In this document: in pieces, positions 45,377-49,516 of the stretch | Numbering within the stretch: position 1 is the first letter of the stretch | How the letters are laid out: every line of letters begins with the position of its first letter | From: Oligoflexia bacterium | Lineage (GTDB): Bacteria > Bdellovibrionota_G > JANQFH01 | DNA: 64,000 nucleotides | Assembly (NCBI GenBank): GCA_028277945.1 | Contig: JANQFH010000003.1 | Span: 62,001 to 126,000 of the forward strand | Direction: 5' to 3' | Notes under the pieces: model-generated | The model's database searches: none | The model's input: only the letters and a program-made list of their open reading frames with translations | What the model was told of the DNA's origin: nothing | Position numbers and translations under genes: made by a program

Positions 45377-45444
45377 TCCCTAGAAGGTACGGCCTTACTT
45401 TCAGGGAATGCATTCCCTGAAAGTAAGGCCGTACCTTCTAGGGA
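45377..45444. terminator. Perfect 68-bp palindrome with T-tract (terminator-like)
   Basis: Every base from 45377 to 45410 pairs with its partner from 45444 back to 45411: a perfect palindrome of two 34-nt halves with no spacer, centred on ATGCAT. On the minus strand it begins 7 nt after the stop of the 45452-46324 gene and is followed, after GG, by T7. That makes it an extreme intrinsic terminator separating that gene from the groES promoter (45350). A stem this long and perfect is well beyond the usual 6-12 bp, and no copy is seen elsewhere in the window. Confidence 0.85.
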
Positions 45445-49142: not shown

Positions 49143-49207
49143 TCGTTGCGTTCCTTCAGACGCATCACGTCAAAACTGAACTTTTGCAACATTGCAATTA
49201 GTATCGT

Positions 49208-49307
49208 CTCTGCAGTCGTGTCCAAGCAGTCTGAGGCGGAATAAAGCGCAGGAGGCCGGAGGCCGACGAGCCATCCGCCGAAGGCTTGGTTGGACACGAC
49301 TGCAGAG
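49208..49307. repeat. Structured palindromic element, copy 1
   Basis: An 18-bp perfect outer stem (49208-49225 with 49290-49307) encloses, after a small internal loop and a 5-bp helix with one G-T, a GA/GA tandem mismatch (49233-49234 and 49280-49281) and a 6-bp stem GGCGGA/TCCGCC (49235-49240, 49274-49279). The core AATAAAGC...GAGCCAT (49240-49274) contains a small hairpin with a GGA loop. The core matches copy 2 at 26 of 35 positions, while stems differ but stay paired. Strand of function is unknown. Confidence 0.75.
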
Positions 49308-49359
49308 GCAAAGTCAATTGAAATGATTTTTGAATTCTGTTGCACACGCGCTGTTACAG

Positions 49360-49442
49360 CGATGGTACGACAACCTGAGAGAAAATAAAGCACAGACGAG
49401 CGGAGCGAGGCGAGCCATTTCTCGAAGGTTGTCGTACCATCG
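49360..49442. repeat. Structured palindromic element, copy 2
   Basis: A 17-bp perfect outer stem (49360-49376 with 49426-49442) is followed directly by the same GA/GA mismatch (49377-49378, 49424-49425) and a 6-bp stem GAGAAA/TTTCTC (49379-49384, 49418-49423). The core AATAAAGC...GAGCCAT spans 49384-49418. The stem sequences are unrelated or substituted relative to copy 1, but complementarity is kept. It lies 46 bp before the hisS promoter. Confidence 0.75.
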
Positions 49443-49487
49443 ATAACATAGGTGTTTGTAGCAAAAACAAAACAGATGCCTTTAACT

Positions 49488-49516
49488 TTGCCAAAATAGT
49501 TGTGGGACACTAGACT
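49488..49516 (+). promoter_or_regulatory. hisS promoter
   Basis: TTGCCA (49488-49493), 17-nt spacer, TAGACT (49511-49516). The ATG at 49523 follows 6 nt after the -10, so transcription should start at about the start codon. No ribosome binding site is present. Confidence 0.6.

Follow-up and report, generated by a model that had tools for sequence, protein, structure and literature searches.

Bacterial MITEs with transcribed hairpins, such as ERIC, NEMIS/Correia and RUP, are small, non-coding, dispersed, intergenic sequences with inverted-repeat ends and very stable stem-loops (PMC2229807, PMC3733652), traits that recur in the element described here, the inverted-repeat ends at many of its flanks. 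It also has in common with REP/REPIN sequences that it is repetitive, extragenic and palindromic, that it lies behind gene 3' ends, and that RAYT-like genes are present in the genome. Mobile-looking single and double hairpins are likewise found among the repetitive hairpin-forming and double-hairpin elements of mitochondria and the yeast GC clusters (PMC2800124, PMC4478555). When replication switches template between the arms of an inverted repeat, the arms become homogenised and the spacer inverted (PMC8604942); RNA hairpins can arise and be maintained in this way (PMC8794818).

The locus studied here lies between lipB and hisS in a window of 64,000 nt (the whole stretch of DNA that was analysed, from an Oligoflexia bacterium), where an earlier note had described two adjacent structured elements. 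Direct reading of the sequence confirms that two 35-nt cores, at 49240-49274 and 49384-49418, agree in 26 of their 35 positions; that eight of the nine differences fall within a 17-nt mini-hairpin with a GGA loop; that the 6-bp stems (GGCGGA/TCCGCC against GAGAAA/TTTCTC) differ at four pairs, every one of them compensated; and that a GA/GA tandem mismatch sits just outside this stem in both hairpins. The outer arms, described as perfect and unrelated, are indeed unrelated and run to 17-19 bp, but in hairpin A only the outer part is perfect, with a bulge (AAGCAGTC/GGCTTGG). The extent first given, 49208-49442, proved too small, the recognisable right end being at about 49513.

Hairpin A, arms and core, spans 49206-49309 on the forward strand, as judged by folding and by the A-type arms common to other copies; its core, on the same strand, consists of AATAAAGCGCA, the mini-hairpin (GGAGGCCGGAGGCCGAC) and GAGCCAT, and is matched by a covariance model at G000:C2:111230-111284. 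A spacer at 49310-49351 separates it from hairpin B (49360-49442, forward strand), which is delimited by an inverted repeat, its fold and 14 aligned copies, and whose forward-strand core (AATAAAGCACA, mini-hairpin GACGAGCGGAGCGAGGC, GAGCCAT) is matched at G000:C2:111374-111428. The inverted-repeat search of the window returned I1, with arms 49190-49228/49287-49325, and I2, with arms 49360-49384/49418-49442. At 49190-49205, I1 and the left ends of other copies indicate an outer extension of the hairpin A palindrome, the element's left outer end being decayed. The right outer end, at 49481-49509 on the reverse strand, reads TGTCCCACAACTATTTTGGCAAAGTTAAAG inward from outside and aligns with the ends of other copies; it is adjoined by CTAG (49510-49513), as are many other ends. 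The idea that CTAG is simply the stop codon of the neighbouring gene fails at the right end of this copy, which precedes a start codon. A 251-nt region of the locus folds far better than its shuffles (z = -10.6), and the core strands of hairpins A and B give z = -9.96 and z = -8.24, respectively.

The earlier observation is real, yet the locus represents a single member of a dispersed family. The host genome is a 95.6% complete MAG whose 92 contigs add up to 2.86 Mb; in it a DNA search returned 64 matching pieces that were grouped into about 28 dispersed sites; 4-kb surroundings were fetched for the sites outside the window. The earlier note had proposed a covariance-model search of this genome and its relatives. 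Such a model (R1), built from 27 aligned cores, found 35 hairpins in the host genome at E <= 1, the four last ones weak, and none in four other genomes of the phylum. With about 28 sites, mostly intergenic, and at least 35 hairpins, the family is dispersed, non-coding and multi-copy as MITEs are. The strict core pattern is missing from an 84,980-species collection and from IMG/VR. A search of plasmid DNA gave no homologue, nor did 95 further genomes searched at the DNA level, where three weak matches in two genomes were set aside as a short GGCCTCCGGCC-type or unrelated stretch with no A/B-like hairpin. All these collections may omit the window's own genome or its near kin. No Rfam 15 family exceeded its gathering threshold in the window, and a known RNA family was rejected after a permissive Rfam scan of three copies, whose sole match, the MIR8001 hairpin, is sub-threshold and reflects a generic long hairpin. 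The earlier suggestion of a mobile palindromic element without a described family is upheld by the approximately 28 dispersed sites, the discrete outer motifs, and the negative results from Rfam and the outside collections.

The unit of this family consists of hairpin A, a short spacer and hairpin B, with core starts 143-145 nt apart in paired copies (the distance from which the spacer in the window was recognised), an overall length of roughly 300-430 nt, and hairpins that measure about 85-105 nt. Both hairpins are built as long inverted repeats around a core that is strand-specific, AATMAAGC..mini-hairpin..GAGCCAT. The two cores are oppositely oriented in eight of 11 script-scored pairs, with eight scored A- B+, two A+ B+ (L013 and the window) and one A+ B- (L016). 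Core A of the window is inverted relative to the majority of copies and, because of this census, we regard the same-direction tandem as a minority form in which A has been flipped. L028 is a further pair, mis-typed by the script because the mini-hairpin is missing from its B; other copies consist of A or B by itself, or are chimaeric. An inverted repeat resembling GTCCCACAA adjoins YTAG at many outer ends, and in about half of the outer flanks (scored by eye) YTAG lies from a few to about 14 nt from a GYCCCAC-like motif, the background frequency of YTAG being one per ~236 nt. The GYCCCAC-like ends are inverted at many flanks, not all, and their distance to YTAG is variable. Comparison of the ends of copies for a target-site duplication gave YTAG/CTAR at the ends, with no clear direct duplication beyond.

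Genomic context was assessed at 27 sites by a simple longest-ORF gene call, ORFs overlapping elements being called by length alone. The sites are mostly intergenic and chiefly behind gene 3' ends; convergent and co-directional gaps predominate, and one gap is divergent. Genes at the copies are mutually unrelated, so that the element has no constant neighbour, and neither a promoter nor a terminator was found to be conserved; the surroundings of the window copy hold one promoter-like site and no terminator-like site.

The apex of the hairpins is a hot spot of exchange and replacement. Two forms of the 17-nt mini-hairpin predominate, each found in A and in B, and locus L020 is reciprocal, with the B-type form in A and the A-type form in B. 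Eight hairpins, spread over seven loci, have had their apex replaced by one of three types of larger hairpin element: type I in L014, L015 and L033; type II in L026 A, L027 and L036; and type III in L017 B and L026 B. Types I and II together make up a single larger structured family, which shows covariation of its own (two-sided changes at 16 of 24 predicted pairs) and has the layout AAGCGA-hairpin-GAGCGC-long stem-AATAAT. A covariance model of this family, run on 385 genomes, matched in the host genome and at one weak look-alike only, which resembles the type II hairpin and lies in genome G114 (L077:1490-1580, GCGAAGGGCGGTTTATCCGCCCGTGAGCG). Type I/II repeats were also seen adjoining or separating tRNA genes (L062:827-945, L070:558-675, L074:676-795, L075:581-698, L063:856-1025), in L074 and L075 a base or two from the tRNA end, and at L071:653-770 a type II copy lies within the loop of another hairpin, with flanks CTCCCGCCGCC and GGCGGCGGGAG, like types I-III in the A/B apices. 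A further repeat of ~190 nt, with ends GAGAGGCAGCTGGGTTGTTTTGC and GCAAAACAACCCAGTTGCCTCTC, has at least six copies (for instance, L017 from 2285 and L014 1656-1842).

Covariation across the copies is real and strong. The statistical test called for in the earlier note gave, for 14 B hairpins, 13 pairs with two-sided changes versus 4.5 in shuffles, and none of 500 shuffles was as high; sliding the partner by one to three columns abolished the signal. The B arms alone hold 16 two-sided Watson-Crick changes versus 2.7 expected under arm independence; such private changes, present on both arms, count among the footprints that template switching would leave. Compensated stem changes are the usual evidence for structure, and the earlier note had taken them to indicate selection. 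Both footprints of template switching, arm homogenisation and apex inversion, are seen in the family: the A hairpin of L013 is now a perfect 26-bp palindrome that has lost the G-A mismatch, and L030 has an A-type left arm and forward core joined to a B-type right arm. Because these are footprints of template switching as well, compensation alone is no proof of selection; the covariation stands, but the earlier case for selection is supported only in part. Three features are not predicted by template switching. Unpaired core bases are invariant; the tandem G-A mismatch is kept in 25 of 27 hairpins (11/13 A, 14/14 B); and one-sided arm changes on the core+ strand favour G.T over A.C, by 14 to 3 distinct changes (p=0.013) or, with the inserted family added, by 23:6 (p=0.002). 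This bias rests on few independent events and is suggestive only, because the arm-only count followed an earlier one (B hairpins and the inserted family only, cores included) that was not significant at 15:6 (p=0.08). Of the two strands, it is the core+ one that folds better.

If the family were a functional structured RNA, that is, a cis-acting 3'-UTR element or a small RNA selected for its fold and dispersed only secondarily, then the strong covariation, the invariant unpaired core bases, the G.T over A.C bias on the very strand that folds better, and the position of most copies behind gene 3' ends would all be accommodated. We nevertheless consider this unlikely: the two cores of most copies are opposed in direction, apices flip or have their place taken by other repeats, the host genes are unrelated, Rfam gathering thresholds are unmet, the window copy is without a terminator-like site, and template switching can itself yield covariation (PMC8794818). 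A separate ncRNA gene (the earlier note had thought of a new ncRNA) is not supported, given the opposed cores in eight of 11 pairs together with the lack of a constant neighbouring gene and of a conserved promoter or terminator. Enzymes that could move the element were sought in the 95.6% complete host genome, where neither DDE_3 nor DDE_Tnp_1 domains were found. RVT_1 likewise had no match, and a group II intron or retron-type element was rejected on that ground. An IS630-type TA target, suggested by YTAG, was dropped since no cognate transposase was found among the families sought and the end distance varies. The single rve match (L046) lies on a 5-kb contig, C17, next to a polymerase-like ORF; because this ORF, judged by its sequence alone, reads as a Polinton-type polymerase, the two resemble a eukaryotic Polinton and C17 is likely to be a contaminant of the bin.

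Two RAYT-like genes are present (C61:13.1k and C9:48.8k), both under the NCBIfam cut-off, and the family might accordingly be a REPIN-like single-stranded DNA substrate of one of these Y1 transposases; strand-specific hairpins fit an HUH Y1 enzyme, and TIR-flanked RAYT-like genes without GTAG repeats, some of them in repeat families, are known (PMC3733652). Each gene, however, is bounded by an inverted repeat of its own that is related to neither A nor B, and no A/B copy is near either gene, the nearest being tens of kb off, so we judge the two to be unlikely partners. Neither A nor B conserves the GTAG tag that marks the palindrome foot of REP/REPIN sequences (the foot of B varies between copies, with ACGTAGG, ACATAGG, AAGGCAGG and ACGCAGA), and we hold a REPIN-like origin to be quite improbable. 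An inverted pair, CCTAGAAGGTACGGCCTTACTTTCAGGG, at 45379-45406 and 45415-45442 of the window is close to the repeat flanking one RAYT-like gene (L060:3012-3662); a third match lies in L033. Apex inversion, A/B exchange and imperfect hairpins with conserved unpaired bases could also recall attC-like recombination sites flipped and swapped by a site-specific recombinase, but no cassette array was seen around the fetched copies, and arms copied from each other, as in L013 and L030, are not predicted by one-crossover recombination; this is the explanation to which we give very little credence.

Given the observed copy number, dispersal, architecture, flips, swaps, nested apices and covariation, the family is, in our view, probably a non-coding, lineage-specific, MITE-like palindromic mobile element, with template-switched arms, nested apices and a constrained core+ strand. 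We infer mobility because of the dispersal alone, and similarly infer transposition in trans, the template-switch mechanism and a recogniser of the core. The twin-hairpin element would have spread in trans to the approximately 28 intergenic sites; following insertion, template switching from one arm to the other during replication would homogenise them and invert the apex, while conversion or exchange between copies would swap mini-hairpins. The single-stranded apex may then serve as an entry point for other hairpin repeats, giving nested elements, and the core+ strand may be constrained as a folded single strand, either as a transcript or as single-stranded DNA bound by a putative enzyme. More speculatively, and with little confidence, we suggest an apex exchange system in which hairpin families of one lineage with unrelated arms share the foot motif AAAGC..stem..GAGC, and one putative one-strand enzyme would insert or swap whole hairpins at single-stranded apices.

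With its ~35 paralogous hairpins, the family is a natural set that allows two causes of compensated changes to be told apart: arm homogenisation and apex inversion are signs of template switching, and kept G-A mismatches, invariant unpaired bases and the G.T bias are signs of selection on the folded strand. Some of the pairing evidence usually taken to indicate functional RNA can be imitated when one arm of a hairpin is copied from the other, which bears on how far covariation in repeated hairpins is read as RNA function, and the nested apices suggest that bacterial hairpin loops serve as targets for insertion.

Compared with ERIC, NEMIS/Correia and RUP, to which no sequence match was found, the element differs in having two hairpins, with a common core on unrelated arms, and in an apex that flips, is swapped and comes to hold nested hairpins. 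Its hairpins of ~85-105 nt are longer than the 20-40 nt of REP/REPIN sequences (PMC3116915, PMC3733652). The mitochondrial elements are organellar, and in those of sponges the stems are conserved and the loops vary, whereas here the arms vary and the core loops are conserved. Inverted repeats mutated by template switching likewise have homogenised arms and inverted spacers (PMC8604942, PMC8794818), but there the process is a mutational one at single loci, and here it would act on a dispersed mobile family. The twin-hairpin element is best read as a new, lineage-specific element of the MITE kind.
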